Positions 1 through 63,872 of a stretch of 64,000 nucleotides of DNA are shown here, one piece after another. Under the pieces are notes generated by a model. That model was not told the DNA's origin. It saw only the letters and a program-made list of their open reading frames with translations, and did no database searches. Where the stretch lies: positions 28,270 through 92,269 of the forward strand of contig CADBYS010000007.1 of assembly GCA_902798965.1 (NCBI GenBank). The letters are read 5' to 3'. This DNA comes from an uncultured Bacteroidales bacterium. GTDB taxonomy: Bacteria; Bacteroidota; Bacteroidia; Bacteroidales; Paludibacteraceae. Numbering within the stretch: the first letter of the stretch is position 1; each line of letters starts with the position of its first letter. The translations under genes were made by a program, and so were the position numbers.

Positions 1-942
1 TCGACCGGTCATCCGGGTTATGGCGGTCTGGATATATTCAAAGCCGAACGCGACACTACTGCCATCGACAGTTTGTCGGGGATGGGTTGGCAGATATACA
101 ATATGGGTGCTCCGTTCAATACGAACGGCGATGATTTCGGAATAACGTTTGCCTCGGAGGGCGAGCAAGGTTTCTTCTCGTCGAACCGCGGGCAGAGGAA
201 AGGTATAGACCAGATATACAGTTTCATACTTCCTGAGATGGAGTTCATTGTAGAGGGAACGGTGATGGACAACAACAACGAACCGATAAGCGAGGCTGCT
301 ATTCGTCTGGTAGGAAATAACGGCACGAACACCCGTCTGCAAGTGCGCCGCGACGGCACGTACAAGATCAAACTGCAACGCGACGTGAAGTACGTGATGC
401 TTGGCACGGCACGAGGCTATCTGAATCAGAAACAGGAACTGAACACCTTGGGACTGAAGGACAGCAAGTCGTACAGTCAGGATTTTGTGCTATCGCCTAT
501 CAGCAAGCCTGTAACGATGGATAATATCTTCTACGAGTTCGGCAAGTGGGACTTGACTCCCGCTTCGGAGACCGGCTTGGCAGCACTTGTGAAGTTGCTC
601 AATGACAACCCGAACATCACCATCGAGCTGTCGGCACATACTGACTATGTGGGCAACGATGCAGCCAACAAAGAGTTGTCCGCCAAACGTGCGCAGAGCG
701 TTGTAACCTACCTGATCGAGCACGGCATAGAACGCGACAGGTTGACACCGGTGGGTTATGGCGAAGAGAAACCCGTAGTGGCGGATGCAGCACTCAATCA
801 GAAGTACCGGTTCATACCTGTGGATCAGGAACTGACAGAAGAGTTCATCACGGGATTGACAAGTGAGCAACAAGAGATCTGCAACCAGATCAACCGTCGT
901 ACGGAGTTCAAGGTATTACGCACAACGTATAAACTTTATTAG
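1..942 (+). CDS. OmpA-family outer membrane protein (PorE-like), 5' partial
   Basis: The frame is open from base 1, so the N-terminus lies outside the window. The visible part begins with beta-propeller-like sequence (GGLDIF near the edge and FFSSNRG), continues with a carboxypeptidase-regulatory-like segment (EGTVMDNNNEPISEAAIRL) and ends in an OmpA C-terminal peptidoglycan-binding domain (LSAHTDYVGND, LSAKRAQSVVTYL, VGYGEEKPV). This TPR/WD40/CRD/OmpA order matches PorE-type proteins of the type IX secretion system, which anchor that machine to peptidoglycan, but several OmpA-family proteins share it. The final TAG is the first three bases of the repeat word TAGACCG that fills the gap to thyA. 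Confidence 0.8.
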   Translation, partial: STGHPGYGGLDIFKAERDTTAIDSLSGMGWQIYNMGAPFNTNGDDFGITFASEGEQGFFSSNRGQRKGIDQIYSFILPEMEFIVEGTVMDNNNEPISEAAIRLVGNNGTNTRLQVRRDGTYKIKLQRDVKYVMLGTARGYLNQKQELNTLGLKDSKSYSQDFVLSPISKPVTMDNIFYEFGKWDLTPASETGLAALVKLLNDNPNITIELSAHTDYVGNDAANKELSAKRAQSVVTYLIEHGIERDRLTPVGYGEEKPVVADAALNQKYRFIPVDQELTEEFITGLTSEQQEICNQINRRTEFKVLRTTYKLY

Positions 943-984
943 ACCGCCTTCGGCTGAAAGACAAAAGACAAAAGACAAAAGACA
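941..984 (+). repeat. AGACCG hairpin word plus AAAGACA heptamers
   Basis: The whole gap between the OmpA gene and thyA is repeat. It starts with AGACCG, then the hairpin GCC-TTC-GGC, then GAAAG and tandem copies of the 7-mer AAAGACA running up to the thyA ATG. The first bases overlap the upstream stop codon. No ribosome binding site can be seen. Confidence 0.85.
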
Positions 985-1779
985 ATGAAACAATATTTGG
1001 ATTTATGCCGCAGGGTACTTGAGGAAGGAGTACAAAAGACTGATAGAACGGGTACGGGAACAATCAGCGTGTTCGGACATCAGATGCGATTCCATATGGC
1101 GGACGGTTTTCCGTTGCTAACCACCAAGAAACTGCACCTGAAATCAATCATCTACGAGTTGCTGTGGTTCTTGCAGGGCGATACCAACGTGAAGTATCTG
1201 CAAGAGCACGGCGTGCGTATATGGAACGAGTGGGCTGACGAGAACGGCGACTTAGGGCCGGTATATGGTCATCAGTGGCGCTCATGGCCTGACTACAAAG
1301 GCGGGACGATTGATCAGATAAGCAATCTGGTGGAGATGATCAAGAAGAGTCCGGATTCCCGTCGGCTGATCGTGAGCGCCTGGAACGTGGCGGAGGTGGA
1401 TACGATGGCTTTGCCGCCTTGTCACACCTTGTTTCAGTTCTATGTGGCAGACGGGAAGTTGTCGCTGCAACTCTATCAGCGGAGTGCGGATATCTTCCTG
1501 GGTGTGCCGTTCAACATCGCGTCATACGCGCTACTGCTGCAGATGATGGCTCAAGTTACGGGCTTGGAGTGCGGAGATTTTGTGCACACGTTCGGCGATG
1601 CGCATATATATATCAACCACCTGGAGCAAGTGAAACTGCAACTGACGCGCGAGCCGCGGCCGCTGCCTAAGATGCTGATCAATCCTGACGTGAAGTCGAT
1701 CTTTGACTTCCAATACGAAGATTTCACATTAACCGATTATAACCCGCATCCGCATATCGCGGGAGTAGTAGCCGTATGA
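985..1779 (+). CDS. thyA: Thymidylate synthase
   Basis: This cytosolic enzyme makes dTMP from dUMP using 5,10-methylene-tetrahydrofolate and leaves dihydrofolate. At 264 residues it is exactly the length of the classical ThyA. The N-terminal DRTGTGT motif (phosphate-binding loop), the catalytic cysteine in [11 protein letters not shown], the [13 protein letters not shown] segment and the C-terminal AGVVAV are all present. It overlaps folA by 4 nt (ATGA), the usual coupling because DHFR recycles the dihydrofolate that ThyA produces. The start codon follows a run of AAAGACA repeats rather than a Shine-Dalgarno sequence. Confidence 0.98.
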
Positions 1780-2264
1780 TATCCATTATAGTAGCTATAG
1801 CAGAGAATTACGCCATTGGTAAGAAGGGCGGATTGTTGTGTCACCTGCCGGCAGACCTGCAACATTTCAAGCAAGTGACGCAAGGACACACGGTAATTAT
1901 GGGGGAGCGCACGTACCTGTCGCTGCCCAAGCACCCGCTCCCTAACCGGAAGAACATCGTGATAAGCGACAACCCTGCTTTCAACGACGAGCAGGCTGTT
2001 GTAGTGCGTTCGATACCCGAGGCGATGGCGCACGTAGGCAAAGAGGAAGAGGCATTCATCATTGGCGGCGGAATGGTGTACAGGCAGTTCATGCCAATAG
2101 CCGACAAGCTGTATATCACGCATATTCACCATAGTTGGGAGGATGCCGATACCTTCTTCCCTGTGATTGAGCCTGACACATGGCAGCAAACAGCCGCTGA
2201 ACGGCACGAGGCTGACGAAAAGAATCCCTACCCCTACACGTACGCGGAATATTTAAGGAAGTGA
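1776..2264 (+). CDS. folA: Dihydrofolate reductase
   Basis: NADPH-dependent reduction of dihydrofolate to tetrahydrofolate. The 162-residue protein has the family N-terminus [15 protein letters not shown], the substrate helix with [10 protein letters not shown], the TVIMGERTY region, the [11 protein letters not shown] nucleotide-binding loop and a C-terminal [12 protein letters not shown]. The residue before HLPADL is Cys (LLCHLPADL), where most family members have Trp. Start and stop overlap ThyA and a repeat respectively: the TGA lies inside a GAAAGGT heptamer run. It is translationally coupled to thyA. Confidence 0.96.
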
Positions 2265-2297
2265 AAGGTGAAAGGTGAAAGGTGAAAAGTGAAAGGA
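2260..2297 (+). repeat. AAAGGTG heptamer run
   Basis: About five near-perfect tandem copies of the 7-mer AAAGGTG/AAAAGTG immediately follow, and overlap, the folA stop codon. The same word, or its complement CACCTTT, recurs at 28732-28806 and 58931-58952. Confidence 0.85.
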
Positions 2298-2348: not shown

Positions 2349-3959
2349 ATGAAACAGATGAGATTATTTGTAACGATAGCAGCCATTATGATGGCTTGCG
2401 GTCTGTATGCTGCGCCATATACGGCACAGATAGAGCATGTTACGGTGTTTACGCAAGGCGCAGAGTTACAACAGAAAGTATCTATCCCTCTGCAAGCCGG
2501 CAACAATACCGTGGTGATAGAAGGCTTGTCGCCATATATCAACCAGAAGAGTTTGCAGATCGCCCTGAGCGGAGGTGTGATAGTACAACAATACGCATTT
2601 AGCAACGACTATCTGTCGGCAGACAAGCAGAGGATGAACACAGCCGCGTTGGAGGACAGCCTGAAACTGGCACAGGATGCGTTGGCGGATGCAGAGCGCC
2701 GAATAGCGACCATCGCGGAGATGCAGAAACTACTGCAAGCGGGTGTGAACAGTACGTTAACTGCCTCTACAGGAGTGACAACCGCGCTGATTGACAAGAA
2801 TCTGCAGTACTTCCGCACGAACTCCCTGGAGCTTGCCAAGCAGATGGATGCCACTCGTGGCGAGAAGACTGCGTTGGAGAAACGTATCAAGGCGCTGCAG
2901 AAACAGATACAGGAGAACGGCGGTTTGGCAGTAAACAAGGCAGGTATCGTGACACTGGAGGTTAACTCTCCCAAGAAACAGACAATAAGCGCGTTGCTGA
3001 CGTACTTCACGCCGCAAGCTTCGTGGTATGCGACCTACGATCTGAACATCAAAGATCTGAGTTCGCCTATTGCGCTGGTGATGAAAGCGCACGTAGCGCA
3101 ACACACGGGTATTGACTGGAAGGATGCTCATCTGACCTTATCCACCGGCAGTCCTTCGCGCACGAACGAGGCGCCGGAACTATATACCTGGTGGTTGGAA
3201 CAGCAGGTGATTCGCACGCGCGGTTATGCTGCAAAGAACGCTTTGTACGGCGTAGCAGCGATGGCTGTGGAAGCGGATGCAGCGCCTCAGGCCGAAGAGG
3301 TACTCTACGAAACAGCGGGTGTCGGCAACTATGTTTCCGCCAATGAGCAAGCGCTGGCTGTGGAGTACGCTATCAGCCTGCCCTACACCATCGCCGGCAA
3401 CTGCAAGGAGCAGATGATTGCGCTGCTTGACAAGCAGGTACAAGATGTGAACTATGCGTACTATACCGCACCGTGCAAGGACGAAAGCGCCTATCTTGTG
3501 GCGTACATCAACAACTGGAGCGCGCTGAGTCTGCCCGACGGCACAGCGAACATCACCTACAACGGCACGTACTACGGCGAGAGCCGGTTGGCAGCGAACG
3601 ATGAGTCGGCAAAGGTGCGACTGACCTTGGGCGATGACAAGCAAGTGAAGATCAAACGCGAGAAAACCGCCTACAACACCAAGACAAGCGGTAATAATAA
3701 AATAGTAACGTACGCGTACACGACGCACGTGCGTAATGATAAGAAGGAAGCTATCACGCTGACCCTGACCGACCAATATCCCGTAAGCAGCGCCAAAGAA
3801 ATACAGGTGAGCGTGAGCGACAAGAACACGCAGCCGACCACGGAGAACAAGCAGACAGGCATCGTGACCTACGAACTGACGCTGGCACCCGGAGAAAGCA
3901 GAGATATAGTGCTCGGCTACACGGTTAAGTATCCGAAAGATTGGAGAATCAATTTGTAA
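2349..3959 (+). CDS. MuiA-like DUF4139/DUF4140 protein
   Basis: This is a predicted periplasmic or surface protein of 536 residues. It starts with a clear signal peptide (hydrophobic residues 5-21, then Ala-rich LYAAPYTA). A DUF4140-like N-terminal domain (VTVFTQGAELQQ, IEGLSPYI) is followed by a coiled-coil segment at about residues 95-190 and a DUF4139 C-terminal domain (ASWYATYDL, LTLSTGSP, LPYTIAGN). The family is named after mucoidy inhibitor A, but its biochemical role is unknown. The gene stands alone between folA and an outer-membrane protein. The stop codon again abuts an AGACCG repeat. Confidence 0.88.
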   Translation: MKQMRLFVTIAAIMMACGLYAAPYTAQIEHVTVFTQGAELQQKVSIPLQAGNNTVVIEGLSPYINQKSLQIALSGGVIVQQYAFSNDYLSADKQRMNTAALEDSLKLAQDALADAERRIATIAEMQKLLQAGVNSTLTASTGVTTALIDKNLQYFRTNSLELAKQMDATRGEKTALEKRIKALQKQIQENGGLAVNKAGIVTLEVNSPKKQTISALLTYFTPQASWYATYDLNIKDLSSPIALVMKAHVAQHTGIDWKDAHLTLSTGSPSRTNEAPELYTWWLEQQVIRTRGYAAKNALYGVAAMAVEADAAPQAEEVLYETAGVGNYVSANEQALAVEYAISLPYTIAGNCKEQMIALLDKQVQDVNYAYYTAPCKDESAYLVAYINNWSALSLPDGTANITYNGTYYGESRLAANDESAKVRLTLGDDKQVKIKREKTAYNTKTSGNNKIVTYAYTTHVRNDKKEAITLTLTDQYPVSSAKEIQVSVSDKNTQPTTENKQTGIVTYELTLAPGESRDIVLGYTVKYPKDWRINL

Positions 3960-3998
3960 GACCGCTGCGCTCAAAGATAAAAGACAAAAGACAAAAGA
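3958..3998 (+). repeat. AGACCG word plus AAAGACA heptamers
   Basis: Begins on the last base of the stop codon of the preceding gene (TAAGACCG) and continues with GCTGCGCTC and four AAAGACA-type heptamers (AAAGATA, then AAAGACA copies). It is the same composite as at 941-984. Confidence 0.8.
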
Positions 3999-4061
3999 TT
4001 ATTTGGTATTGACTTTGAGCGAGAGAAATGAACGTTATTCAACTAAATACACATCACTACT

Positions 4062-7015: not shown

Positions 7016-7984
7016 ATGCATAATTTACTATATATAACTTGGAACGTTGATCCTGTGCTGCTGCATTTGGGCAGTCTGGAGATACGGTGGTATGGTTTGC
7101 TTTGGGCGATTGGATTGTACTTGTGCTACCTGATACAAATCAAGTTGTACAAGCACGAGAACTGCCCCGACGAATGGGCAGACAAGATCTTCCTATGGAT
7201 GGCACTGGGAGTGATCATAGGCGCACGTATCGGTCACTGCTGGTTCTACGAATGGCACGACGTGACCATCCCCTGGATGGCTAACTACTGCAAGGCGATG
7301 AACATCAGCACCGAACCTGTGCAGATCTTCGGTTGGACGATCAAGTACCGCAATCCGTACATAGAGCACCCGTTCTATCTATTGAAGATCTGGGAAGGCG
7401 GCTTGTCGTCGCACGGCGGAGCGATAGGTCTGTTCATAGCCGCGTGGCTGCTGAACAAGAAGCACTTCTCGAAAGTGCCTAAGTTCCACACCTCGATGAT
7501 CTGGATTCTTGACAGGTTGTGTATCGGCGTGGGTGTAACGGCTACGCTTATCCGTTTGGGGAACCTGATGAACAGCGAGATTTACGGCGGTCCGACCGAT
7601 CTGCCATGGGGATTCATCTTCGTACGTGACGGTCAGACTGTTCCCTGCCACCCTACGCAGATCTACGAGATGCTCTACTGCATCGTGGCGCTGATTGTCA
7701 CGAAATGTATGTACCGCTACGGCAAAGCATATCGGCGCGAAGGACTGCTGCTCGGCACGTTCCTACTCATCGTGTTCGTCACGCGATTCCTGTTGGAGTT
7801 CATCAAGAACGATCAAGAGCTTTTTGAGGCGGGACATCTGCTGAATATGGGGCAGATACTGAGTATTCCGTTCATTGCCATTGCTGCATGGCTCGTGGTA
7901 CGAGCCTATAAGCGGCCGATGAATCCTGACACAGCTGAGGAGAAGTCAGAAATCAGAAGTCAGAAGTCAGAGAAGAGAAAGTGA
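7016..7984 (+). CDS. lgt: Prolipoprotein diacylglyceryl transferase
   Basis: An inner-membrane enzyme that attaches diacylglycerol to the lipobox cysteine of prelipoproteins. It has several membrane helices, the N-terminal SLEIRWYGLLWAIGLYLCY segment, the signature HGGAIGLFIAAW and the arginine/glutamate-containing RLGNLMNSEIYG. The last 14 residues (EKSEIRSQKSEKRK) are encoded by a run of AGAAGTC heptamers, so the tail appears repeat-derived and lies beyond the last membrane helix. The TGA overlaps the GTG start of the next gene. Confidence 0.96.
   Translation: MHNLLYITWNVDPVLLHLGSLEIRWYGLLWAIGLYLCYLIQIKLYKHENCPDEWADKIFLWMALGVIIGARIGHCWFYEWHDVTIPWMANYCKAMNISTEPVQIFGWTIKYRNPYIEHPFYLLKIWEGGLSSHGGAIGLFIAAWLLNKKHFSKVPKFHTSMIWILDRLCIGVGVTATLIRLGNLMNSEIYGGPTDLPWGFIFVRDGQTVPCHPTQIYEMLYCIVALIVTKCMYRYGKAYRREGLLLGTFLLIVFVTRFLLEFIKNDQELFEAGHLLNMGQILSIPFIAIAAWLVVRAYKRPMNPDTAEEKSEIRSQKSEKRK
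7941..7980 (+). repeat. AGAAGTC heptamers encoding the Lgt tail
   Basis: Tandem near-copies of AGAAGTC inside the last codons of lgt, translated as the Ser/Glu/Lys-rich tail. They lie outside the conserved catalytic core. Confidence 0.75.
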
Positions 7985-9183: not shown

Positions 9184-10541
9184 GAATATTCGAAATATTG
9201 AAATATCGAAATATCGAAATATCGAAATATCTCCTGATCGGTATTATCCTCTGCCTCACGGTAGTCTCTCACGCCGCGGAGTATATCGGTCGGGTGGTTG
9301 ATGAGCGAGGCAATCCGGTCAGTTATGCCACGGTCTATATGGCGGATGATCCCGTGGTAGGTGCAGCCACAGGCAGCAACGGCTTGTTCCGCTTGCAAAC
9401 CGATCTGCCTATCTACTCCGAACTGATCGTATCATTCATCGGCTATGAGAAGCAAACGCTGCTACTCAGCGAGCTGCACGAGGATACGACCGTTATCATC
9501 CTCAAGGAGCAACCTATTCATCTTGAGGAAGTGGTGATTGCCGCCAAACCGCAGAAGCAGAAAAACAAACGCAAGCGGATGCAAGAGTTGCTGGCAGCCG
9601 TGTACGCGCAGATGGAGCGCGACTTCCCGCTCAGCACTACCGGTTATCATATCGTGAGCGATGTGCGCATGGATGCCGACAACGTACCGTGGGGTATGGA
9701 GCAGATGATTGCCTATGTGGTTATGCTGCCGCGCCAAGGCAGGTACTACAAAGACCCGCGCAATGGCAAGAAAGGTGTTGTGCCAACCGACTCCATCCAG
9801 TTCAGCGGCGAACATTGCAAACGGTTCTTTGATGCCTCTATCCGTAGCCTTGCCGACAGCATCTATACGACCAACGACCTGGAAGCCATCAACCCGAACA
9901 TGCGCAATGCCGCCGCCGCGGTGGATTCCGGTGTTGTGGTGCATCGAACATTGTGGAGCATGGGCAATGTGTTCTACGACTTTAGCAACACCATGAAAGA
10001 GGTCAACCGTTGGCAGGTGAGCAACGAGAACGAAGGAGAGACAGTGCTTACGTACACCGAGAACCGGAACATTCTGGGCATCTTCCTCTACAAGATGCAA
10101 CGGCATTACATACTCCACTCCGACGATCTGCGCATATCGCGCTTCGTGGAGCAGGCACATGTAGAACTCAATATTCCTTTCGGCTACAAAGTCAAACCCA
10201 AAGAGATGCAACTGCTTAACCTGCTGAACATGGAGGAGAAGCAGATTGAGCAATACCGCATCAGCAAGGTGCATGCCGATATCAGTCTGAACAGCATCTA
10301 TCAGGAACGCGACGAGCACCTGTATCCGCTCGAGAAGAATCTGCAGAGCGATGCAACCATCATCGGCAAGCGCAAAGACCGCAAACCCACAGGACGTGGG
10401 ATGATCGAATCGAAGGATACTATCCCGCTCAACATCCGCGCCACGCAACGCGTGACCACACTGCGCACACGTGATGTGCAGCCGATGACCCGCAAAGAGA
10501 TCAAACGACGCGTTCCGCGAACCAACGTTCCTATATACTAA
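9180..10541 (+). CDS. Carboxypeptidase-regulatory-like domain protein
   Basis: A 453-residue secreted protein. The start codon and the first 17 residues (ISKYRNIEISKY-type) are encoded by tandem GAAATATC repeats. The hydrophobic core of the signal peptide (LLIGIILCLTVVSHAA) follows directly, so the repeat supplies the n-region. Residues 35-115 form a carboxypeptidase-regulatory-like beta-sandwich (YIGRVVDERGNPVSYATVYMA). The rest resembles uncharacterised Bacteroidales proteins that combine this domain with an all-beta C-terminal part. It probably acts at the envelope with the preceding DUF3078 protein, with which it shares an ATGA overlap. Confidence 0.82.
   Translation: MRIFEILKYRNIEISKYLLIGIILCLTVVSHAAEYIGRVVDERGNPVSYATVYMADDPVVGAATGSNGLFRLQTDLPIYSELIVSFIGYEKQTLLLSELHEDTTVIILKEQPIHLEEVVIAAKPQKQKNKRKRMQELLAAVYAQMERDFPLSTTGYHIVSDVRMDADNVPWGMEQMIAYVVMLPRQGRYYKDPRNGKKGVVPTDSIQFSGEHCKRFFDASIRSLADSIYTTNDLEAINPNMRNAAAAVDSGVVVHRTLWSMGNVFYDFSNTMKEVNRWQVSNENEGETVLTYTENRNILGIFLYKMQRHYILHSDDLRISRFVEQAHVELNIPFGYKVKPKEMQLLNLLNMEEKQIEQYRISKVHADISLNSIYQERDEHLYPLEKNLQSDATIIGKRKDRKPTGRGMIESKDTIPLNIRATQRVTTLRTRDVQPMTRKEIKRRVPRTNVPIY
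9181..9232 (+). repeat. GAAATATC tandem repeat at a signal-peptide start
   Basis: Four to five copies of an 8-nt unit (GAAATATC or CGAAATAT) fall inside the first codons of the gene starting at 9180. They encode its positively charged N-terminus before the hydrophobic segment. Confidence 0.85.
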
Positions 10542-11522: not shown

Positions 11523-13605
11523 TTCCTTTGCCATTCAATCCGGGCATCGGATAGTTCAAGATGATGTCGTATTGCTGATTGAGTATATTATTGAACTCCA
11601 AAGCAAAATGCAAGCGAGGTCTGATTGCTGATTGCTGACTGCCGACCTCCATCTCATACGACACGCTCACATCGTGGGTGTACCACGGTTGCTCATGGTT
11701 GGCGGGAATGTTCGCGGAGTTGTGGTATCGTTCGCCCACATAGATAAACGCGTAGTTAAGCGATAGTCCCCGCCACAGGATATTGGCAGTTACTGACCCG
11801 CTATGCCAGGGCACGTAAGCGATCTGACCACCGTACGTAATCTCGTTCGGATCGGTCAGATCTTGTGCTTTCTGGTAGGTGTACGCCGCGGCTAACGAGA
11901 ACAGTACCTGATTGTCGGTCACAGCCCATGGATTGAAACATAGCGTGGTAGAAAGGTTGGCATCCACACCGCGAATCTCCACATACCCCAAGTTCATCAT
12001 CTGCCAGCGATACTGGCCTGTACCTTTCGGCACGGCTACAATCTTGTTTGTCACCTGATTGAAGTAACCATCCACCTTCAGGTCAATCGCACGACATACG
12101 CCCCTACTCCACGTCTTGGTATATTCCGCACCCAAGTCGTATTGCGTCGTGTATTCGGGCTTGAGGCCAATATAACCGACATCGGTGTAATACAGATCGT
12201 TGAACGTAGGCATGCGGAAGATGCGCTTGTAGAACGTACGGATATACAGGTCTTGGATATACGGATGTACGGTCAGGAACACGGCTGGTGTGAACTGCGG
12301 TTTCTGCTTGGAGGCAGTAGGCATAGTGGCTGTAGGGTGATGAATCTTGTCGTGCACGAACGTACCGAGTACGGAAGCCTGCGCCTTGATATACGTCCAG
12401 TCGAGCTGCGTAGCTACGGCAGCAAGTACTGTCTGACGCTCGGGATAGACGAAGTTAGCCATGTTACTCTCCAGGTAGTTCCACTGGTAGTCAGCCGAGA
12501 GCGATATATCCCAGTTGAGCGTGCGATGCGGTAGCAGACCTTTCACGCCTACTATAGCCAAACGATGCGCCATGCTCAGATACACCTCTTGCTGCGTAAA
12601 ACTGTTGTCGATATACATCAGCGTGGTGTCGGGATTCAGATAGCGCATAAAGTCGTTGCTGTACTTGGCATTCACCTGCACGTCGTAGCCTTTCGTCACG
12701 CGCTGCGTGAAGTTGCCTTGCACAAAGGCATTTCTGTCCCACTGCCGCTGCGAGTTTTTCCACACATTGTTCACTATCGCACCCGGAATACCTTTCTCGC
12801 TCTGGTAGTAATAGCCCTTGATATGCCACTTGCCTTCGGGCAGGTAGCCGAATATGCCCGCCTCAGCCCTGCCGGCTTGTATATCGCCGTTCTGCCTGAC
12901 GGCGGTCGTGTCCCACGCCACGATGCCTCCGGGCAGCACCTTGCGGTAGCGGAAATGGTAACGGCCGTGTGCGTACGTGTACTCGCCGCCGGCTGATAGG
13001 TGGATATCCTCTGTCAGTTTCTGCTCGTAGAGCACGGATGGGTTAGCCAAGCCGAACGTACCCGCTTTCATACCTACGCTCAGGTTGTACGACTTGCCGT
13101 CCGTGAACCGCGGCCGACGCGTCTTCAGATACAAGGTGCCCGCAGAGCCGTAATCCTTGGCGGGCTGGAAGATCTCGGATTTCTGGCCATTGTACAACGC
13201 TATCTGTTCTATATTCTCCATGGAGAATTTGCCCAAGTCAACCACTCCGTTCTGAGCATTGCCTATCTCTATGCCGTCGTAGAACACGCCCAGATGATGC
13301 GTTCCCATCGAGCGCAGGTCAACAGTCTTCAAGCCGCCTACTCCGCCGTAATCCTTGATCTGCACGCCGGAGAAGTATCGCACGGCATCCGCCACGCTCT
13401 GTGTGGACAAGCCAGCCAGGCGCGCACCTTCCAGCTTCTGCACGGGTATAACCGGCTCCTCCCTGCGGCGAGCACTCACCTCCACCTCATCCAACTCAAA
13501 CTGACGAACAATGCTGTCCAGCATCGCTGCCGAACGGTCATCCTGTGCCGACACCTGCAGTGCCGACAAGGTACAGATCAGTATGAGCATATAGCATCTA
13601 CGCAT
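11503..13605 (-). CDS. TonB-dependent outer membrane receptor
   Basis: A 700-residue receptor that imports a ligand with energy from TonB. A signal peptide (ends near LQVSAQ) is followed by a plug domain (ISVARRR-like VEVSARRREEPV, GVQIKDYGGVGGLKTVDLR, VFYDGIEIGN) and a beta-barrel ending in LEFNNILNQQYDI and a terminal aromatic-poor strand. The plug and size are closest to BtuB/FepA-like receptors, but the ligand is unknown. Near the C-terminus a GATTGCT heptamer run is read in frame (GSQQSAIRP) between two predicted strands. Confidence 0.92.
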   Translation of the reverse strand: MRRCYMLILICTLSALQVSAQDDRSAAMLDSIVRQFELDEVEVSARRREEPVIPVQKLEGARLAGLSTQSVADAVRYFSGVQIKDYGGVGGLKTVDLRSMGTHHLGVFYDGIEIGNAQNGVVDLGKFSMENIEQIALYNGQKSEIFQPAKDYGSAGTLYLKTRRPRFTDGKSYNLSVGMKAGTFGLANPSVLYEQKLTEDIHLSAGGEYTYAHGRYHFRYRKVLPGGIVAWDTTAVRQNGDIQAGRAEAGIFGYLPEGKWHIKGYYYQSEKGIPGAIVNNVWKNSQRQWDRNAFVQGNFTQRVTKGYDVQVNAKYSNDFMRYLNPDTTLMYIDNSFTQQEVYLSMAHRLAIVGVKGLLPHRTLNWDISLSADYQWNYLESNMANFVYPERQTVLAAVATQLDWTYIKAQASVLGTFVHDKIHHPTATMPTASKQKPQFTPAVFLTVHPYIQDLYIRTFYKRIFRMPTFNDLYYTDVGYIGLKPEYTTQYDLGAEYTKTWSRGVCRAIDLKVDGYFNQVTNKIVAVPKGTGQYRWQMMNLGYVEIRGVDANLSTTLCFNPWAVTDNQVLFSLAAAYTYQKAQDLTDPNEITYGGQIAYVPWHSGSVTANILWRGLSLNYAFIYVGERYHNSANIPANHEQPWYTHDVSVSYEMEVGSQQSAIRPRLHFALEFNNILNQQYDIILNYPMPGLNGKGIIRLML
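11621..11646 (-). repeat. GATTGCT heptamers inside a TonB receptor
   Basis: Three tandem 7-mers (GATTGCT, GATTGCT, GACTGCC on the + strand) lie inside the receptor coding sequence. They are translated as a short polar stretch that probably sits in a loop. Confidence 0.7.
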
Positions 13606-16607: not shown

Positions 16608-16658
16608 GTGTATTATCATCCAAGATTTATTCTCTTTTTCCTTTCACTTTTCACTTTT

Positions 16659-16731
16659 CAATTCCCCCTTCCTCCACTTTTGCTCCGGTGGCAGTGTAGC
16701 TTGTGCCATCAGGATGGTTGAAGATAATCTA
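16659..16731 (-). pseudogene. Second relic of the same C-terminal tail
   Basis: The minus strand reads IIFNHPDGTSYTATGAKVE and then runs into CTTTTCA heptamer repeats, which supply a stop. Bases 16672-16698 are identical to 15082-15108. The relic lies directly after the stop codon of the 113-residue gene. Confidence 0.5.
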
Positions 16732-28640: not shown

Positions 28641-28731
28641 TGATTTGCGAAAATATTGGTAGTTTTTTTGATTTTTTCGTAAAAATACACAAAAAAAGCC
28701 GCGCGGGCGGCTCTTTTTGTTCAATTCACTC

Positions 28732-28806
28732 CTTTCACCTTTCACTTTTCACCTTTCACCTTTCTCTTTTCACCTTTCGCCTTTCACCTTTCACCTTTCA
28801 CCTTTC
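28732..28806 (+). repeat. CACCTTT/CACTTTT heptamer run
   Basis: Ten or so tandem 7-mers (CACCTTT with variants CACTTTT, CTCTTTT, CGCCTTT) in the long gap between the BRO remnant and dtd. This is the longest heptamer run in the window. Confidence 0.9.
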
Positions 28807-28918
28807 AAAAGTGTGCAGCTTAATCGGGGTCAAATCATAGTCAAGTCCATGGCAACACCAACCTAATCGCTCACTGGTCGCGTACGGTTTGCCCCTCCGA
28901 TCTTTCCGCAACCTCGTC

Positions 28919-34651: not shown

Positions 34652-34666
34652 GGTAGTTATTTTATT

Positions 34667-34740
34667 AGTCGAAAGACCGTCCCTTCGGGACTCAAAGACA
34701 AAAGACAAAAGACTAATTACTCTTTGAGCGTTAGCGGTCT
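34667..34740. repeat. Composite AGACCG element
   Basis: Between the MscS-like stop and the aminotransferase start. Reading minus, it begins TAGACCGCTAACGCTCAAAG on the stop codon, continues with TAATTAG and AAAGACA-type heptamers, and ends with the hairpin GTCCC-TTC-GGGAC and CGGTCTTTCGACTAATA. The ends AGACCG and CGGTCT are inverted copies. A near-identical composite is at 43838-43926. Confidence 0.85.
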
Positions 34741-43826: not shown

Positions 43827-43837
43827 AATTATTGTTA

Positions 43838-43926
43838 GTCGAAAGACCGTCCCTCGGGACTCAAAGACAAAAGACAAAAGCCTAATTACTCTTTGAGCGT
43901 TAGCGGTCTTTGAGCGTTAGCGGTCT
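43838..43926. repeat. Composite AGACCG element with a duplicated end
   Basis: The same composite as at 34667-34740, with GTCCC-TC-GGGAC (one T shorter in the loop), AAAGACA heptamers, and a TTTGAGCGTTAGCGGTC word present twice. It lies between the fumarase stop codon (TAGACCG on the minus strand) and the LytM-like gene. Confidence 0.85.
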
Positions 43927-47438: not shown

Positions 47439-47469
47439 TAGTCGAAAGTCAAAAGTCAAAAGTCGAAAG
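47439..47469. repeat. AAAGTCA/AAAGTCG heptamers between exbB and exbD
   Basis: The 36-nt gap is almost entirely the words GTCGAAA, GTCAAAA, GTCAAAA, GTCGAAA. It is nearly identical to the run between dxr and rseP. Confidence 0.85.
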
Positions 47470-52682: not shown

Positions 52683-52795
52683 ACAATAAGGATTAAGGAA
52701 TAAGGAATAAAGACTTAAATGGATTCGACGGATGTAGCTCGTCTTTACTCCTTCAGTGAAACGGTCCTTACTCCTTACTCCCCAAAAGATAAATA
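52681..52795. repeat. TAAGGAA heptamers and their complement
   Basis: The rny-DUF349 gap has TAAGGAT, TAAGGAA, TAAGGAA, TAAAGAC words on one side and GTCTTTA, CTCCTTC, CCTTACTCCTTACTC words on the other. The two halves are roughly inverted relative to each other, so a stem is possible. Confidence 0.65.
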
Positions 52796-55430: not shown

Positions 55431-57239
55431 TTAATCCAGTTTCAGCACGGCGAGGAAGGCTTTTTGCGGCACTTCCACGTTGCCTATCTGTTTCATACGT
55501 TTCTTACCGCGTTTCTGCTTCTCGAGCAGCTTGCGCTTACGGCTCACGTCACCGCCGTAACACTTGGCGAGCACGTCTTTGCGCACCTGCTTCACCGTTT
55601 CGCGGGCAATGATCTTGGCACCTATAGCCGCTTGGATGGCTATATCGAACTGCTGGCGCGGCAGCAGTTCCTTCAGTTTCTCGCACATCCTGCGCCCGAA
55701 ATCCACGGCATTGTCGCGGTGCGTCAAGGTTGATAAGGCATCTACCTGTTCGCCGTTCAGCAGGATATCGAGTTTCACCAGGTTCGACGGACGGAAACCG
55801 TTATGATGCCAGTCAAATGAGGCGTAACCCTTGCTTATACTCTTCAGTTTGTCGTAGAAGTCGATCACTATCTCGCCCAGCGGCATATCGAACAGCAGCT
55901 CCATGCGGTTGCCGGATATATACTCCTGCTTCACGAGCTCGCCACGTTTGTCGAGGCAGAGCGTCATGATGTTACCGATGAAGTTCGAGGTCGTGATGAT
56001 CGATGCACGGATATACGGCTCTTCAATATGGTCGATCTCCGTCAGGTCGGGCATACCCGCAGGGTTATGCACCTCCTTCATCGTGCCGCCTTTCAGGTAC
56101 ACGTTGTAACTTACGTTCGGCACGGTAGTGATCACATCCATGTCGAACTCGCGATCCAGACGCTCCTGAACGATCTCCATGTGCAGCAGTCCGAGGAATC
56201 CGCAACGGAAGCCGAAACCCAAAGCGACCGATGATTCCGGCGTGAAACTGAGCGACGCATCGTTCAGTTGCAGTTTCTCGAGCGATGCACGCAGATTCTC
56301 ATAATCCTCTGCTTCAATCGGATACACACCCGCAAACACCATCGGCTTCACTTCCTCGAAGCCCTCGATGGCTTTCTCGCAGGGACGAGCCACATGCGTG
56401 ATCGTATCACCTACCCTCACCTCGCTCGAGGTTTTGATGCCTGAAATGATATACCCCACATTGCCCGCACTGATCTCTTTCGTGGGCTGCATATCGAGCT
56501 TGAGGATGCCTATCTCGTCGGCATCGTACTCCTTGCCGGTGTTGAAGAACCGCACCTTGTCGCCTGTGCGCATCGTGCCGTTCACCACCTTGTAGTAACC
56601 GATTATGCCGCGGAAGGAGTTGAATACGGAATCAAATACCAGGCACTGCAGCGGTGCGTTGGGATCGCCCTGAGGAGCAGGTATGCGCTCCACGATGGCA
56701 TCCAGTATGGCTTCCACGCCCTCGCCGGTCTTGGCGGAACAACGGAGTATCTCGTCGCGCTTGCAGCCCAGTAGCTCCACTATCTCATCTTCGACCATGT
56801 CGGGCATAGCGCTCTCCATGTCGCACTTGTTCATCACGGGTATGATCTCCAAGTCATGTTCCAGCGCCATGTATAGGTTCGATATGGTCTGTGCCTGCAC
56901 GCCTTGCGAGGCATCGACTACGAGCAGCGCGCCCTCGCACGCTGCAATCGAACGGCTAACCTCGTACGAGAAGTCCACGTGCCCCGGAGTGTCAATCAAG
57001 TTCAAGATGAACGTCTCGGTCTTTTGACTTTCGACTTTCGACTTTCGACTATAAGCCATCTGTATGGCGTGCGACTTGATGGTTATGCCGCGCTCCTTCT
57101 CGAGCTCCATATCGTCGAGCACCTGGTTCTCCATTTGGCGCACGTCAACGGTGTTGGTTATCTCCAACATCCTGTCCGCCAACGTTGACTTCCCATGGTC
57201 AATGTGCGCGATTATGCAAAAGTTCCGTATATTCTTCAC
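55431..57239 (-). CDS. lepA: Elongation factor 4 (LepA) with a repeat-encoded insertion
   Basis: A ribosome back-translocating GTPase, 602 residues. GTP-binding motifs [17 protein letters not shown] and NKCD are intact, and the family C-terminal domain ends in the usual Lys/Arg region. At residues 63-75 (between [10 protein letters not shown] and [10 protein letters not shown]) the sequence reads RKSKVESQK, encoded by heptamers. The segment is about 7 residues longer than I expect for Bacteroidetes LepA, which equals 21 nt or three heptamers. The likely start is the GTG at 57239. Confidence 0.96.
57021..57050 (-). repeat. AAAGTCG heptamers inside lepA
   Basis: Four tandem words (TTTTGAC, TTTCGAC, TTTCGAC, TTTCGAC) read in frame in the GTPase domain of lepA, between two conserved strands. 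They are identical in type to the intergenic runs at 41811 and 47439. Confidence 0.92.
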
Positions 57240-57342: not shown

Positions 57343-57409
57343 GGAGAGCGGAGGCAATGGTGCGCTCTATGCCGCCCGCGGCATCTGTAAGCACCATTTG
57401 CCGAACGCG

Positions 57410-57801
57410 TGGAGATAGCGGGAGTCGAACCCGCGTCCAAACATGGAATCAATACGCTTTCTACACGCTTATCTTGGCCTTCGTTTTCGTGCGGTAGCAA
57501 GACCCAAGCCACCAACTATCGCCTTATCTGCTAAGATTTCGGCATCGCATCGCAGCCTGCGATGCCTATTCTGTGTATTTCCGCGCCACTTTGCCCATTC
57601 AGCCCACAGACTCGGCTTGGAGTGACGTCTCGGGTCAGTACCTTGTACCGACGCTAAGCTGATCTACTATACTTCGATCAAGCGGCGAGAGCTACATTGT
57701 AGTTGCCAGTTATAATTTTGCAGACGATATTTACGAGCGTCTCTGCAGTGCTCGGCGTGCTTACATACCTATTCTACATGCTGTCAAAACCAATTATCCC
57801 C
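57410..57801 (-). ncRNA. ssrA: Transfer-messenger RNA
   Basis: About 392 nt, minus strand. The 5' end GGGGATAATTGGTTTTGAC and the 3' tRNA-like end (GGACGCGGGTTCGACTCCCG then CTATCTCC and A) pair in the acceptor stem (GGGGATA with TATCTCC). The T-loop GTTCGAC is present. CCA is not encoded. The tag reading frame (57678-57707) gives GNYNVALAA then TGA. It rescues stalled ribosomes with SmpB. The promoter is at 57813-57844. Confidence 0.95.
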
Positions 57802-57941: not shown

Positions 57942-58994
57942 CTACGTATACGAATGCAATCCTCCGAGCAGGTACGAAACGCCGAAATATGTGAACAGCA
58001 CGAATACGAACGCCACCACCGCGGCTATGTGGTAGATCAGCTGTTTGCTGTTGCCGCTGAGTTTCAGGTATCTGCTCAGCCACGGCCAGTGCAGCAGCAG
58101 CGCATACACGAGCATCGTGATCAGTGCCCAGGTCTCTTTGGGATCCCAGCCCCAGTACCTGCCCCACGACATGTTCGCCCAAACTGCACCGATGAAGATG
58201 CCGGCAGTAAGGCAGAACAATGCCGGATACAGCAGCAGTTGCGACAGATGCATCAGCCGCTCGCGGCGCGCAGGCATCGACAGCCCTAATATTCCGTTCA
58301 CCATCATCACGGCAAACAAGGTATAGGCTAACATGATTACCGACACATGTATGCCGAGCAGCGGCGTCTGGAGCACGGGCTGCAACGGCGGTTTGGGTGT
58401 CACCACCTTCGTCATCACAACAGCCAGTACGACCACCGCTACCCCTAACACAACCATCAGCCACGTGTGTTGCTTGCTGATCAGCGCGCGGAAATACGTG
58501 CGGCGCTGGAAGAAGAAACCTATCATCGCTATCAGCAGCAAACTGTAGCCTGTATAGGTGATACCTATGCCCCACGGGTCGTAGCTGTAGGTGAGCACCA
58601 CGCCTTGCATGTCGCTGTCGTAATCCGACTGACAGAAGCGGTAGCCGTGGTACTTGAGCGGCTTATTCATCTGCACGATACCCTCATCAATCTGCAGCGG
58701 CTGAACGCTCCTGTCAAGCAGTCGCAACTCGCTCACAAAATCCGCAGGGTTGCCTTGCTCATCGCTCACAATATGAAAGTCCCACAGGAACATGCTGAAC
58801 TCCGTATCAGGAATACGAGTCGCCTTATCCGCGCGCAGGTGTATCTCGCCCTGTACGCCGACGAAGTGCGTCACACACGCCCCCACGACTATTGTCGCGA
58901 GGGCTATGTGCAACATCCACGTTCCTATCTTCAACCTTTCACCTTTCACTTCCTGCTTTCGACTTTCGACTTTTGACTTTCGACTAAATAGCAT
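57942..58994 (-). CDS. ccsA: Cytochrome c maturation protein (ResB/CcsA-like)
   Basis: A 350-residue membrane protein of system II haem ligation. The N-terminal part contains ResB-like sequence (HLRADKATRIPDTEFSMFLW), the C-terminal part the CcsA haem-handling WWD region (WGRYWGWDPKETWALIT) with six or more helices and conserved His. Its first 20 residues ([19 protein letters not shown]) come from heptamer repeats, starting at an ATG 11 nt inside the preceding gene, so it is translationally coupled. It probably attaches haem to the di-haem enzyme. Confidence 0.88.
   Translation of the reverse strand: MLFSRKSKVESRKQEVKGERLKIGTWMLHIALATIVVGACVTHFVGVQGEIHLRADKATRIPDTEFSMFLWDFHIVSDEQGNPADFVSELRLLDRSVQPLQIDEGIVQMNKPLKYHGYRFCQSDYDSDMQGVVLTYSYDPWGIGITYTGYSLLLIAMIGFFFQRRTYFRALISKQHTWLMVVLGVAVVVLAVVMTKVVTPKPPLQPVLQTPLLGIHVSVIMLAYTLFAVMMVNGILGLSMPARRERLMHLSQLLLYPALFCLTAGIFIGAVWANMSWGRYWGWDPKETWALITMLVYALLLHWPWLSRYLKLSGNSKQLIYHIAAVVAFVFVLFTYFGVSYLLGGLHSYT
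58931..58986 (-). repeat. Heptamer mixture supplying the CcsA N-terminus
   Basis: CACCTTT and TTTCGAC words follow each other. They encode the charged N-terminal tail of the ResB/CcsA-like protein and the stop codon of the preceding gene lies at their edge. Confidence 0.85.
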
Positions 58995-60601: not shown

Positions 60602-60695
60602 ACTGCGTGTTGGTGACTGCGTGTTGGTGACTGCGTGTTGGTGACTGCGTGTTGGTGACTGCGTGTTGGTGACTGCGTGTTGGTGACTGCGTGTT
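60602..60695. repeat. GTGTTGGTGACTGC 14-mer array, copy A
   Basis: Seven copies of the 14-mer at exact 14-nt spacing between the di-haem gene and the hairpin array. 14 nt is two heptamers. The partner array is at 62098-62190. Confidence 0.92.
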
Positions 60696-60882
60696 AACAT
60701 GAAATCATTAACAGCCAAAGGCTCATTAACATGCAATCATTAACAGCCGAAGGCTCACTAACATGCAATCATTAACAGCCGAAGGCTCACTAACATGCAA
60801 TCATTAACAGCCAAAGGCTCATTAACATGCAATCATTAATAGCCAAAGGCTCATTAACATGCAATCATTAACAGCGTAGCTC
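60694..60882. repeat. 32-mer hairpin array, copy A
   Basis: Six copies of a 32-nt unit such as ATTAACATGCAATCATTAAC followed by AGCCGAAGGCTC. Each unit holds the stem AGCC-GGCT with loop GAA or AAA. The last copy has AGC-GTA-GCT, so the stem changed but still pairs. The array runs to the imelysin stop. Confidence 0.92.
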
Positions 60883-60890
60883 ACAAACAT

Positions 60891-62060
60891 TTATTTAGAA
60901 AGCATCGGCAACACTTCCTTATCCAGCACATCTTCCAGTGCCGACACCTTGTCGATAGCCGCCTTCACTTGCGGGTTTCCTTGTGCGTTGCTCTCGAAGT
61001 TCTCGATGGCTTCGATAGCTGCTATCGACTCCTCAATAGCCTTCCTTACCTTCGCATCCAGATCCTTGTCCTGACTCTTCACGTAATCCGACACACTTGC
61101 GTCACCGGCCTTCGCACCGCAGTAAGCATGCTCTATCGAATGGATATTGTCGGCAAAGTCAGTGGTTGACGTGCAGCTGTACGGACTCTCTATGTAGTCG
61201 CGCTGCTCGGCGGTGTTGCTGATGTACGGATTACCCATCTTCAGGTCAGCTACCTCACCGGCTATATCTATCGCACCGGCAATGATCTCTTCCGCTACTT
61301 CCTGATAGGTTACGTAAATCGATCCTGCCTTACCGGCGTTGATCATCTGCTCGCCGTACTTGTCCTCATATGGCTCAATCTCACCTTCTTTCAGCAGATC
61401 AGCCTTCGCCTTGCTCACCTCGCCTGCCCAGGCGTACTCGAGCAATATAGCCTGTTGCGTCAGATCCTCAACGATAGCATTCAGATACACAGCCTCGGCG
61501 TGCGTGAGGTTAGCGGCGTGCGGACGACCTGTACCGATGGCACGACCGTCTTGCTCTACCGACTCAAACAGCAGGTACTCGCAAGCATGGAAGCCTTTCA
61601 GTGCATAGCCGAGCTTGTCGCCTACGTACGCACCGCCTTCCCTCTCGATCTGAGCCATCTGCTCCTGGTTGTTCAGCAAGGCGTTCATCGCATTGAAGTC
61701 CAACGGCCACGAGTCGATATGCGGGTCGATGTTGTGCGAGCTGGCAGGTCCGTACAGGAACGCTTCGCTCTGCTCCCAATGTTTACGCATCTTACGCCAG
61801 TTAGCGTCTGCGGCAACGATCAGATCCGTGTAGCCTTCGCCTTTCTCAACTTTGTCGAGGATAGCTTGCGTGTTCGCGAGCAGTTCCAGTCCGGCATCAG
61901 CCATGGCGCTATACGTGGCCACAACAGTGTTCTTTACATACGGCGCTGCGACTTTCTGCAACGCCGCTTCTTTGTCCGAGGTAACAGGCGTGTTACCTTT
62001 CTGTTCGCAGGCAGCCAATCCAATAACTGCCAGCGCAACAAGTAAAAAATTCTTCTTCAT
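60891..62060 (-). CDS. Imelysin-family iron-regulated lipoprotein
   Basis: 389 residues with a lipoprotein signal (VIGLAACEQKG, Cys18). The imelysin motif GFHACEYLLFE (GxHxxE) and repeated helical bundle (SIEHAYCGAKAG, FLYGPASSHNIDPHIDSWPLD) fit periplasmic iron- or haem-linked imelysin proteins (IrpA type). It lies in a cluster with the porin upstream and the di-haem enzyme downstream. Both neighbouring gaps are complex repeat arrays. Confidence 0.93.
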   Translation of the reverse strand: MKKNFLLVALAVIGLAACEQKGNTPVTSDKEAALQKVAAPYVKNTVVATYSAMADAGLELLANTQAILDKVEKGEGYTDLIVAADANWRKMRKHWEQSEAFLYGPASSHNIDPHIDSWPLDFNAMNALLNNQEQMAQIEREGGAYVGDKLGYALKGFHACEYLLFESVEQDGRAIGTGRPHAANLTHAEAVYLNAIVEDLTQQAILLEYAWAGEVSKAKADLLKEGEIEPYEDKYGEQMINAGKAGSIYVTYQEVAEEIIAGAIDIAGEVADLKMGNPYISNTAEQRDYIESPYSCTSTTDFADNIHSIEHAYCGAKAGDASVSDYVKSQDKDLDAKVRKAIEESIAAIEAIENFESNAQGNPQVKAAIDKVSALEDVLDKEVLPMLSK

Positions 62061-62097: not shown

Positions 62098-62190
62098 ACT
62101 TCGTGTTGGTGACTTCGTGTTGGTGACTGCGTGTTGGTGACTGCGTGTTGGTGACTGCGTGTTGGTGACTTCGTGTTGGTGACTGCGTGT
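62098..62190. repeat. 14-mer array, copy B
   Basis: Seven copies of GTGTTGGTGACTGC/TTC variants just upstream of imelysin, with the same spacing as copy A. Two copies have C-T-T instead of C-T-G. Confidence 0.92.
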
Positions 62191-62369
62191 TAACATGCAA
62201 TCATTAACAGCCGAAGGCTCATTAACATACAATCATTAACAGCCGAAGGCTCATTAACATGCAATCATCAACAGCCGAAGGCTCATTAACATGCAATCAT
62301 TAACAGCCGAAGGCTCATCAACATGCAATCATTAACAGCCGAAGGCTCACCAACATCAGCTTACAGCTG
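62190..62369. repeat. 32-mer hairpin array, copy B
   Basis: Five 32-nt units with AGCC-GAA-GGCT, then a partial unit CAGCT-TAC-AGCTG at 62357-62369 whose hairpin overlaps the stop codon (62361-62363) of the porin gene. Confidence 0.9.
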
Positions 62370-63872
62370 ATAGAACCCCGCATACACAATCCCCACAGCA
62401 ATCTGCGGCTCGTCGTTATAGAGCTTGCCTACCGTTCCGTCCGCGCGCGTACCGGGCTTGAGTATGCCGTACGAGAACTCTGCCTTCACGGCTACCTGCT
62501 TTATCGGGAAGTAGTTGATGCCCACGGCTGCTCTGTGCCGTCCGCACCAGGCATACATATCCGTCGGTTTGTTGTCGTAGCGGAACATCGAGTCGTAGTA
62601 GTCGTAGCGCCCGAACAAATATAGCTTTTGACTTTTGACTTTCGACTTTCGACTAAGACTAAAGAAGTCGTACCCTATCTCGCAGCCAGCTGCCAATGCA
62701 TCGCTGGCTACCCACTGCTTGCTGCTCACACTACCCTTGCGCATGGATATGTTGTACTGCGTGATAGCTGCAGCGTCGCTCAGGTGACCGTACAGGAACT
62801 CCCCGCGCAGCACCAAGCCGCTGTACTTGTAATCGAAGTCAAACGCACCGATACTAACCATACCCTTTACGTCCTTGTACGCGCTGGCATCCAGCTCGGC
62901 GTTGGTCTTGCTCAAGGTGTTGCGGAACGAGTTGCCGCAATAGCCGCTCAAGCCCAAACGCAAACCATCAATACCTACATAATCCACGCGCGCCGCACCC
63001 GCGAACACATTCGCCAACTTGAACTCGTACGGACTACCGGCACCCGGCTTGATCCAGTTCTTGCGGTTGAAGCGGTCGCTATCCAAACCCGGCAGGAACA
63101 TCAACTGATAGCGCCAGCCCTTGGGTGACGAACCCATGAACGTCAGTGCCACTTCGTGCCAGGTGCTGGGGATGATAGTGAACGATCCCTCGTTACGATA
63201 CACGCCGAAGTATTCGGTCGATTCGTGATGCGCATTCAGGCCGCCCACAGGTATAACCTGCATACCCGCACGCAGAATGGCATATCGGTTGAACTTCTTC
63301 TGCAACCAGAACTGCTCCAGCGCCACTTCGCCGCCACGTTCTATCTCGCCCTCGTACTCACCGCCTTCCTCCTCCTCAATCTCTATGGCGCTCTCCGTGC
63401 CGCCGTGCTCGAACTCGATCTCCGTGCCTACGCTCCAACCGTGGCCGAAGTCGTAACCTAAATATACGACTACGTGCGGCAGATCGAACTCGCCGTAATG
63501 GTCGTTGGCATACTTCTCGGGGTTCTTGCCGTAACGCAGGTAGTTGTTCGAATAGAAGCAATGCTTGGCTGTCACCTCGCCGTACCCGCCGATGGTGAAC
63601 TTCCCGCGCCGACGCGGCTCGCTTTGCGGCGCAGCTTTTGGCTCGCTTTGCGGCGTGGCTTGTGCCGTCTGAGTAGTGTCCACACGGCGCGTAGCACCGC
63701 TCATCGCGTCCACATTACCAACATTTGGGGATAAGCTGTCGCGCTGCTCCAATCGCTCCACGCGACGTATCAGCGCCTGCAGGTCGGCTGCACTTATCTT
63801 TATAGAATCCTGTGCGTACGCACCCAATGCGCACGTTATCAATACAAAACAAATAAGAATCTGTCTTTTCAT
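62361..63872 (-). CDS. Outer membrane porin-like barrel protein
   Basis: 503 residues, signal peptide ending ALGAYAQ. A coiled-coil or linker with Gln/Ser/Pro repeats (residues 30-85) precedes a long beta-barrel (FTIGGYGEVTAKHCFYSNNYL, HVVVYLGYDFGHGWSVGTEIEFEHGG, AVGIVYAGFYQL). The pattern resembles phosphate-selective porin O/P-like proteins. An AAAGTCA heptamer run is read in frame (SLSRKSKVKSQKLYLF). It leads the iron/haem cluster and its last codons lie in the hairpin array. Confidence 0.85.
   Translation of the reverse strand: MKRQILICFVLITCALGAYAQDSIKISAADLQALIRRVERLEQRDSLSPNVGNVDAMSGATRRVDTTQTAQATPQSEPKAAPQSEPRRRGKFTIGGYGEVTAKHCFYSNNYLRYGKNPEKYANDHYGEFDLPHVVVYLGYDFGHGWSVGTEIEFEHGGTESAIEIEEEEGGEYEGEIERGGEVALEQFWLQKKFNRYAILRAGMQVIPVGGLNAHHESTEYFGVYRNEGSFTIIPSTWHEVALTFMGSSPKGWRYQLMFLPGLDSDRFNRKNWIKPGAGSPYEFKLANVFAGAARVDYVGIDGLRLGLSGYCGNSFRNTLSKTNAELDASAYKDVKGMVSIGAFDFDYKYSGLVLRGEFLYGHLSDAAAITQYNISMRKGSVSSKQWVASDALAAGCEIGYDFFSLSRKSKVKSQKLYLFGRYDYYDSMFRYDNKPTDMYAWCGRHRAAVGINYFPIKQVAVKAEFSYGILKPGTRADGTVGKLYNDEPQIAVGIVYAGFYQL
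62625..62658 (-). repeat. AAAGTCG/AAAGTCA heptamers inside the porin
   Basis: Four words read in frame as SRKSKVKSQK between two predicted barrel strands, so probably in a loop. The same words occur in lepA and in intergenic gaps. Confidence 0.9.

Follow-up and report, generated by a model that had tools for sequence, protein, structure and literature searches.

A recurring 30-nt heptamer unit between and inside genes of a Paludibacteraceae genome and its relatives

The window analysed in this study is a 64,000-nt stretch of DNA from an uncultured Bacteroidales bacterium of the Paludibacteraceae (assembly GCA_902798965.1, contig CADBYS010000007.1, positions 28,270 to 92,269 of the forward strand), and our subject is the tandem repeats of 7-nt words, or heptamers, that it carries between and within its genes. 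One form recurs, a 30-nt unit with the formula AGTC(RAAAGTC)3RAAAG built on the word AAAGTCR, whose variants we name by the four R bases (the R pattern). The rumen genome holding the window, referred to here as G000, comprises 2.85 Mb in 51 contigs and is about 90% complete; G001 denotes the genome of its nearest relative, a second species used for comparison. An earlier note, made from the window sequence alone, had listed 20 places with such repeats. Using Tandem Repeats Finder (TRF) for array detection, we found period 7 at 15 of them (941, 2260, 3958, 7941, 11621, 28732, 34667, 36249, where it is weak, 41811, 43838, 47439, 52681, 57021, 58931 and 62625); the places at 9181 and 50796 have period 8, those at 60602 and 62098 have period 14, and no TRF array lies at 46600. 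TRF also found arrays at 16642-16660 and 35721-35751 that had not been listed. The arrays of the window and their neighbours are as follows:

957..985, plus strand: AAAGACA, 4.1 copies, reaching the ATG (985) of thymidylate synthase
2261..2296, plus strand: AAAGGTG, 5.1 copies, overlapping the dihydrofolate reductase stop (2264)
3973..3998, plus strand: AAAGACA, 3.7 copies, intergenic, adjoining AGACCGCTGCGCTC
7941..7971, plus strand: AGAAGTC, 4.4 copies, within the 3′ end of lgt (7016-7984)
9185..9231, plus strand: period-8 array of AATATCGA, within the 5′ end of gene 9180-10541
11621..11642, minus strand: AATCAGC, 3.1 copies, within the TonB-dependent receptor gene 11503-13590
28731..28807, minus strand: AAAGGTG, 11 copies, intergenic
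34694..34713, plus strand: AAAGACA, 2.9 copies, intergenic, adjoining a GTCCCTTCGGGAC stem-loop
41813..41842, plus strand: 30-nt unit, R pattern GAAG, intergenic
43863..43880, plus strand: AAAGACA, 2.6 copies, intergenic
47440..47469, plus strand: 30-nt unit, R pattern GAAG, occupying almost all of the gap from stop 47437 to ATG 47474
52685..52710, plus strand: AATAAGG array; G001 has CTTTCAA heptamers at the same site
52765..52781, minus strand: AAGGAGT array, intergenic
57021..57050, minus strand: 30-nt unit, R pattern GGGA, in lepA, encoding 10 residues; the G001 site is empty
58934..58949, minus strand: AAAGGTG array, adjoining the 30-nt unit at 58956..58985
58956..58985, minus strand: 30-nt unit, R pattern GAGG, intergenic
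60602..60695, plus strand: 14-mer ACTGCGTGTTGGTG, 6.7 copies by TRF, first copy
62098..62191, plus strand: 14-mer ACTGCGTGTTGGTG, 6.7 copies by TRF, second copy
62625..62654, minus strand: 30-nt unit, R pattern GGAA, in gene 62361-63872, read as SRKSKVKSQK, residues 407-416 of 503

The heptamer repeats of G000 are real and exceed chance. Over 464 kb of G000, runs of at least 12 matches at a fixed lag numbered 32 at lag 7, 15 at lag 14 and 13 at lag 22, with at most 7 at lags 4-6 and 8-13 and every other lag up to 40 below the count for lag 22, and each of three dinucleotide shuffles gave no lag-7 run. The larger sets analysed with TRF were 1,256 kb of G000 and 751 kb of G001, in which period 7 accounts for 118 of 191 and 86 of 134 arrays, respectively, of at least 3.5 copies, both counted in natural sequence without a shuffled counterpart; the runners-up in G000 are period 22 (11 arrays) and period 14 (8 arrays). 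The words differ within the genome, as the earlier note had observed. Of 119 G000 arrays with a 7-nt consensus, 43 fall in one class and 51 of the other 76 in eight classes. Outside arrays, single copies of nine such words occur at 0.9-1.9 times the second-order expectation, the highest being AAAGACA (184 against 95 expected; its reversed word 157), and this mild enrichment led us to reject a DNA uptake signal.

The trait extends to related genomes. Those compared are drafts, one per species, and by their labels mostly metagenome-assembled genomes (MAGs); among the relatives, 10 of the 20 loci that best match a window protein (67-75% identity), along with others, carry the label Paludibacteraceae or uncultured Bacteroidales MAG, and several of them come from the rumen of goat, sheep or deer. 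Period-7 arrays number 24 in 180 kb (13.3 per 100 kb) at 12 closer loci, where a window protein is at least 67% identical, and 3 in 118 kb (2.5 per 100 kb) at eight remoter loci (35-52% identity), where periods 9, 11, 12 and 15 outnumber period 7. The trait is uneven among genomes, because 40 kb of one of them, G004, held no period-7 array although AAAGACAAAAGACA has 16 matches across that genome. A 23-nt part of the 30-nt unit is present in 53 of 101 genomes of the genus, with 1-202 overlapping matches in each; G000 has 202 and none to the reversed control, which matches 0-2 times per genome. Neither a lack of 7-mer excess nor an absence of the words from the clade, the two outcomes that the earlier note had named as telling against its observation, was seen. 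One genome, G065, is more lopsided than the other match-rich genomes (48 forward and 9 reverse matches), perhaps through one long array.

The unit has a preferred length and preferred ends. In 856 kb of G000 there are 42 (RAAAGTC)n runs of at least 16 nt, 22 of them exactly 30 nt long; 30 of the 42 start with AGTC, preceded by T in 23 of those 30, and 39 end with RAAAG, followed by C in 31 of the 39. The 1,256 kb of G000 contain 39 exact units. With all words pooled, the lengths of period-7 arrays also peak at 30 nt, the value for 23 of the 94 arrays found over 856 kb in G000 and for 9 of the 48 found over 382 kb in G001; among the genic and intergenic arrays of the larger G000 set, lengths range from 18 to 77 nt with 29 of 101 at 30 nt. 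Thirty further loci, one from each of 30 genomes other than G000 and G001, were picked by the 23-nt pattern in a way that favours longer runs; there, a length of exactly 30 nt is seen in 12 of the 34 runs. The R patterns recur in a manner that differs between species. By hand tally of the complete units listed, GAGG makes up 10 of 15 in G029 and 2 of 11 in G115, where GGGG makes up 7 of 11 (Fisher p 0.02 for GAGG). Judged by eye, families with common ends or internal irregularities also exist for the words AATCGTC, ACATCGT, AAGGAAT and AAAGTTG. Two species, represented by G008 (L065) and G018 (L068), have a unit at a matching position between the same flanks, with GAGA and AAGA as the R patterns.

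The earlier note had treated the arrays as spacers, and they are indeed denser in non-coding DNA (41.9 per 100 kb, against 5.2 in coding DNA), yet of the 121 period-7 arrays in 1,256 kb of G000, 57 are genic, 44 are intergenic and 20 straddle the end of a gene. The gene calls behind these counts are approximate, as they come from our own simple codon-score caller (972 genes, coding fraction 0.88). Confinement of the words to non-coding DNA, which the earlier note had proposed to test, does not hold within its own list, where five of the 20 places are coding: those at 7941 (lgt), 11621, 57021 (lepA) and 62625 have period 7, and the one at 9185 has period 8. Among the 39 exact units of G000, 22 lie in called genes, 21 in the sense orientation and one antisense (binomial p 1e-5), and the sense units use all three frames (6, 7 and 8). 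At the 30 further loci, all 15 of the 28 arrays that lie in a gene are sense and none antisense, the other 13 being outside genes; between tandem genes of G000, exact units take the same orientation as the genes in seven cases and the opposite in four.

Read in the sense direction the unit gives a turn of the cyclic peptide SRKSKVE, and in the antisense direction a turn of STFDFRL. The indifference to frame arises because a heptamer array of a stop-free word reads as one cyclic seven-residue peptide in every frame, and a unit of 3n nt of such a word is therefore tolerated in any frame; at 30 nt, such a unit does no harm at any site that can accommodate a charged loop of 10 residues. Since the sense orientation gives a charged peptide and the frame makes no difference, the in-gene pattern is accounted for without a special function. 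We rejected the related idea that stop-free words are favoured outside genes, as 33 of 63 words are open on both strands, 29 on one and one on neither, compared with 55%, 37% and 7% for random genomic 7-mers. Sixteen host proteins of exact units were identified in Pfam, to which we add the host at 62361-63872 of the window, which has no match; one further host crossing stretch borders was left out. The hosts comprise LepA, Era (GTPase and KH_2 domains), a class I Glu/Gln-type synthetase (GluQRS-like), LeuRS, dehydroquinase II, PrmA, an S41 peptidase, a pseudouridine synthase, a POR/TPP enzyme, AcrB, GH2, SecDF, a GH81-domain protein, MBOAT, a TMEM260-like protein and SpoIIE; Era, GluQRS and LeuRS are putative names assigned from domains and sequence. 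The in-gene units show how the unrelated LepA, Era, LeuRS and dehydroquinase acquire the same short peptide. A 2,399-aa protein of G000 (C6 13895-21094) has three 30-nt units in its first 230 residues, all sense.

The lepA site was surveyed in L099-L128, the 30 best of 61 genomes, of which 29 loci are readable. The loop reads as plain YKGYTLN or a near variant in 17 and contains an insert in 12, and the inserts all differ except for an identical 30-nt unit common to G000 and G009. In this pair the unit sits at the same codon and matches at 30 of 30 positions, although 53% of third codon positions agree in the stretch compared downstream of the loop (at most about 160 codons). If the unit were neutral and inherited, the chance of such identity would be about 5e-9 at 0.53 per site and 0.001 at 0.80. 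The site is empty in G001 and in G017/G075, which lie near G000 on the lepA tree, a single-gene tree given without supports. A recent arrival, exchange or upkeep is a possible account of the identical unit. The insert falls at a 6-residue gap in the alignment to a solved EF4 chain, on which its position rests; a structure prediction from 15 sequences (mean pLDDT, a per-residue confidence score, of 36.8) was not used. Palindromic or other non-heptamer inserts occupy the loop in L100 (G080), L103 (G002) and L111 (G031), so that it is open to inserts in general. In Era, the KH loop carries the unit in G000 only, among 18 pattern-readable loci of 30, and in G073 (L196) that loop holds a heptamer-like insert. 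A second site in gluQRS has CTTTCGA in G000 and ACACCTT in G001, each about 30 nt long.

G000 and G001 were compared over 261 kb of alignments (high-scoring segment pairs of at least 600 nt) with 32 G000 and 35 G001 arrays, a partner site being scored as period 7 at 15 or more of 21 matches. The partner genome is also period 7 at 15 of the 32 and 14 of the 35, respectively; control lags of 5, 6 and 8-11 gave 0 or 1 and random segments 1.4%, and the other lags are the better control because random segments are mostly coding. Word likeness over 29 rows, in which nine sites are entered twice, is 5.0/7 against 3.9/7 in permuted pairs, partly through the same-word sites, and this likeness favours some common descent.

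On balance we favour the reading that G000 and its relatives carry several families of dispersed units of about 30 nt, each made by repeating a single 7-nt word four-odd times, and that such units are transferred whole, as copies, to new places. A unit would be carried to its new place and not rebuilt at each site, most likely by template switching when DNA is replicated or repaired, with homology over a few bases (AG/AAG) serving as primer; 7-nt slippage would make the words and let them drift, and units would survive where they are harmless, in gene gaps and at tolerant positions of proteins. Whole-unit copying, as proposed, would produce the length peak, the fixed ends, the recurring R patterns and the recurrence across species, and it fits the fixed length, the ends and the internal variants in common better than local slippage alone. 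It leaves period 7 itself unexplained; published work suggests a link with the length of DNA that the polymerase contacts. More tentatively, the units may form a new, minimal class of dispersed DNA, copied whole, with its own word set in each species and with the same loops and gaps repeatedly filled; this broader claim we regard as possible and short of probable. If it is true, a length that is a multiple of 3, stop-free words and the heptad period together would allow entry into genes in any frame.

Several observations weigh against this reading. Of the 42 (RAAAGTC)n runs, 20 differ from 30 nt, and seven of the 39 exact units are the 3′ portion of a longer run. A 27-nt run in folC, outside the exact-unit count, is a second antisense case. 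At the lepA codon that holds the unit in G000, G076 and G019 have inserts resembling degraded versions of that array, and one old lepA insertion followed by losses and upkeep is possible in place of recent repeated ones. Period 7 is present in both G000 and G001 at 20 of 58 hand-merged sites, the word being the same at five and different (at most 5/7 bases shared) at 15; the shared sites could be long-standing local arrays in which slippage gradually alters the word, with which mixed-word arrays such as AAAGAC+AAAGTC are also consistent. Few units have a clean empty site, because G001 aligns at about 70-84% and the flanks vary too. Target-site duplications of 2-7 nt around 63 exact units are not above shuffled flanks. 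Mobilising enzymes were surveyed as Y1_Tnp and RVT_1, with DDE, serine and tyrosine enzymes outside the survey; G000, about 90% complete, has neither, and they occur in 3 (at E 1e-8) and 14 of 61 genomes, respectively. Since no target duplication and no Y1 or RVT_1 enzyme was found, movement of the units stands as an inference.

The strongest alternative is pure local replication slippage that prefers steps of 7 nt (the LSSR, or long simple sequence repeat, model, attributed to Mrazek 2007 as cited), in which arrays arise and drift in place. The earlier note had likewise proposed a slippage or polymerase-linked origin. Local slippage is supported by the prevalence of period 7 whatever the word, by the 15 of 20 common sites at which the period is kept and the word changed, and by the mixed arrays. 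Simple slippage fails, however, to explain the 30-nt peak, the fixed ends, the same unit in more than half of the genus genomes, the identical unit at the diverged lepA site and the concentration of arrays in one class and eight others, and we consider it unlikely as the whole explanation. A true mobile element with a dedicated, unrecognised enzyme that inserts 28-32 nt without target duplication seems to us less likely again. It would suit the precise ends, the lack of duplication and the prevalence of one subfamily per species; the enzyme survey speaks against it, the 23-nt pattern occurs with and without RVT_1 (by hand tally, in 8 of the 14 genomes that have the enzyme and in 25 of the 47 that lack it), and several unlike words would each require recognition. 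Binding sites of an RNA- or single-stranded-DNA-binding regulator, as proposed for the TAACTGA repeats of Beggiatoaceae in PMC4679880, are improbable: arrays across gene ends and at a start codon (window 957-985) would agree with them, and the 57 arrays inside genes, the mixed orientation between tandem genes, the different words at the same sites in different species and the near-expected frequency of single heptamers would not.

REP (repetitive extragenic palindromic) elements with RAYT (Y1) transposases are very short dispersed palindromic units. The G000 units share the shortness and the dispersal but are not palindromic, and given the lack of a Y1 transposase match in G000, about 90% complete, we rejected REP/RAYT mobilisation. 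Reverse-transcriptase-templated addition was also rejected, given the lack of an RVT_1 match in G000 and the presence of the pattern in genomes with and without RVT_1. The unit is no miniature inverted-repeat transposable element (MITE) either, in that AGTC and AAAG, at its two ends, do not form an inverted repeat when read directly and no target duplication is seen, although a table in PMC2229807 includes a few MITE families that miss terminal inverted repeats or target duplication. Tandem copies of a short unit above chance, which mark LSSRs, are present. As with the Rickettsia palindromic elements (RPE), which in the same source are dispersed between genes and in frame in conserved proteins (19 reading frames), one repeat stands in frame in unrelated conserved proteins (LepA, Era, GluQRS-like, LeuRS, dehydroquinase II, PrmA, SecDF and others); RPE differ in being 105-146 bp palindromes with terminal inverted repeats, against a tandem unit of about 30 nt.

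The likeness to other bacterial heptamer repeats is borne out. According to work cited in PMC4679880 and PMC4692102, heptamers are the commonest longer simple repeats, and the polymerase-linked idea is credited to Mrazek 2007; heptamer repeats, their occurrence in some open reading frames (ORFs), the repeating peptide and this idea are thus already known. The earlier note knew of no description in Bacteroidales, but PMC4679880 reports TAACTGA repeats not only from Beggiatoaceae and cyanobacteria but also from five Bacteroidetes, one of which, Paludibacter propionicigenes, has two sets, and discusses sets within ORFs of 25 BOGUAY proteins, their repeating peptide, the stop codons that arise when the repeat is read in the opposite orientation, and possible mobility. 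A single word dominates that system, its sets having 2-6 copies in BOGUAY and as many as 43 elsewhere, and the sets within ORFs are found chiefly at the termini of proteins or in proteins annotated as hypothetical, whereas the G000 arrays have many words and a 30-nt unit with fixed ends that lies inside conserved enzymes. The GGGAATC-type repeats of Xanthomonas and Nostoc resemble the G000 arrays in that they are heptamers and that many of them lie between corresponding genes of related species and vary in length and sequence; unlike the G000 arrays they are G-rich, with a proposed G-quadruplex, and no fixed unit is described in the part of PMC4692102 available. A fixed heptamer unit inside conserved enzymes, in several words and replaced at kept sites, was not met in the literature searched, which covered few subscription papers. 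New here are the unit of fixed form, its occurrence within conserved enzymes and the exchange of words at sites that are kept. An excess of heptamers in bacteria has been reported since 2007 and its explanation is still tentative; as this genus keeps the period, often swaps the word at orthologous sites and has the unit recurring across species, its strains could separate slippage from copying.

Further features of the window stand beside these arrays. A search of the window against Rfam gave a tmRNA only, at 57407-57801 on the minus strand, distant from the arrays. Palindromic pieces (AGACCGCT..GCTCAAAGA and GTCCCTTCGGGAC) occur in or beside AAAGACA arrays at 3958-4000, 34660-34745, 43830-43930 and 46595-46720, and look as if they had been put in at GAC|AAAGAC. 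The imelysin (M75) gene at 60891-62060 is flanked by near-identical composite repeats, at 60602-60875 and 62098-62356, each consisting of the 14-mer array followed by 5-6 copies of the 32-mer TTAACATGCAATCATTAACAGCCRAAGGCTCA.

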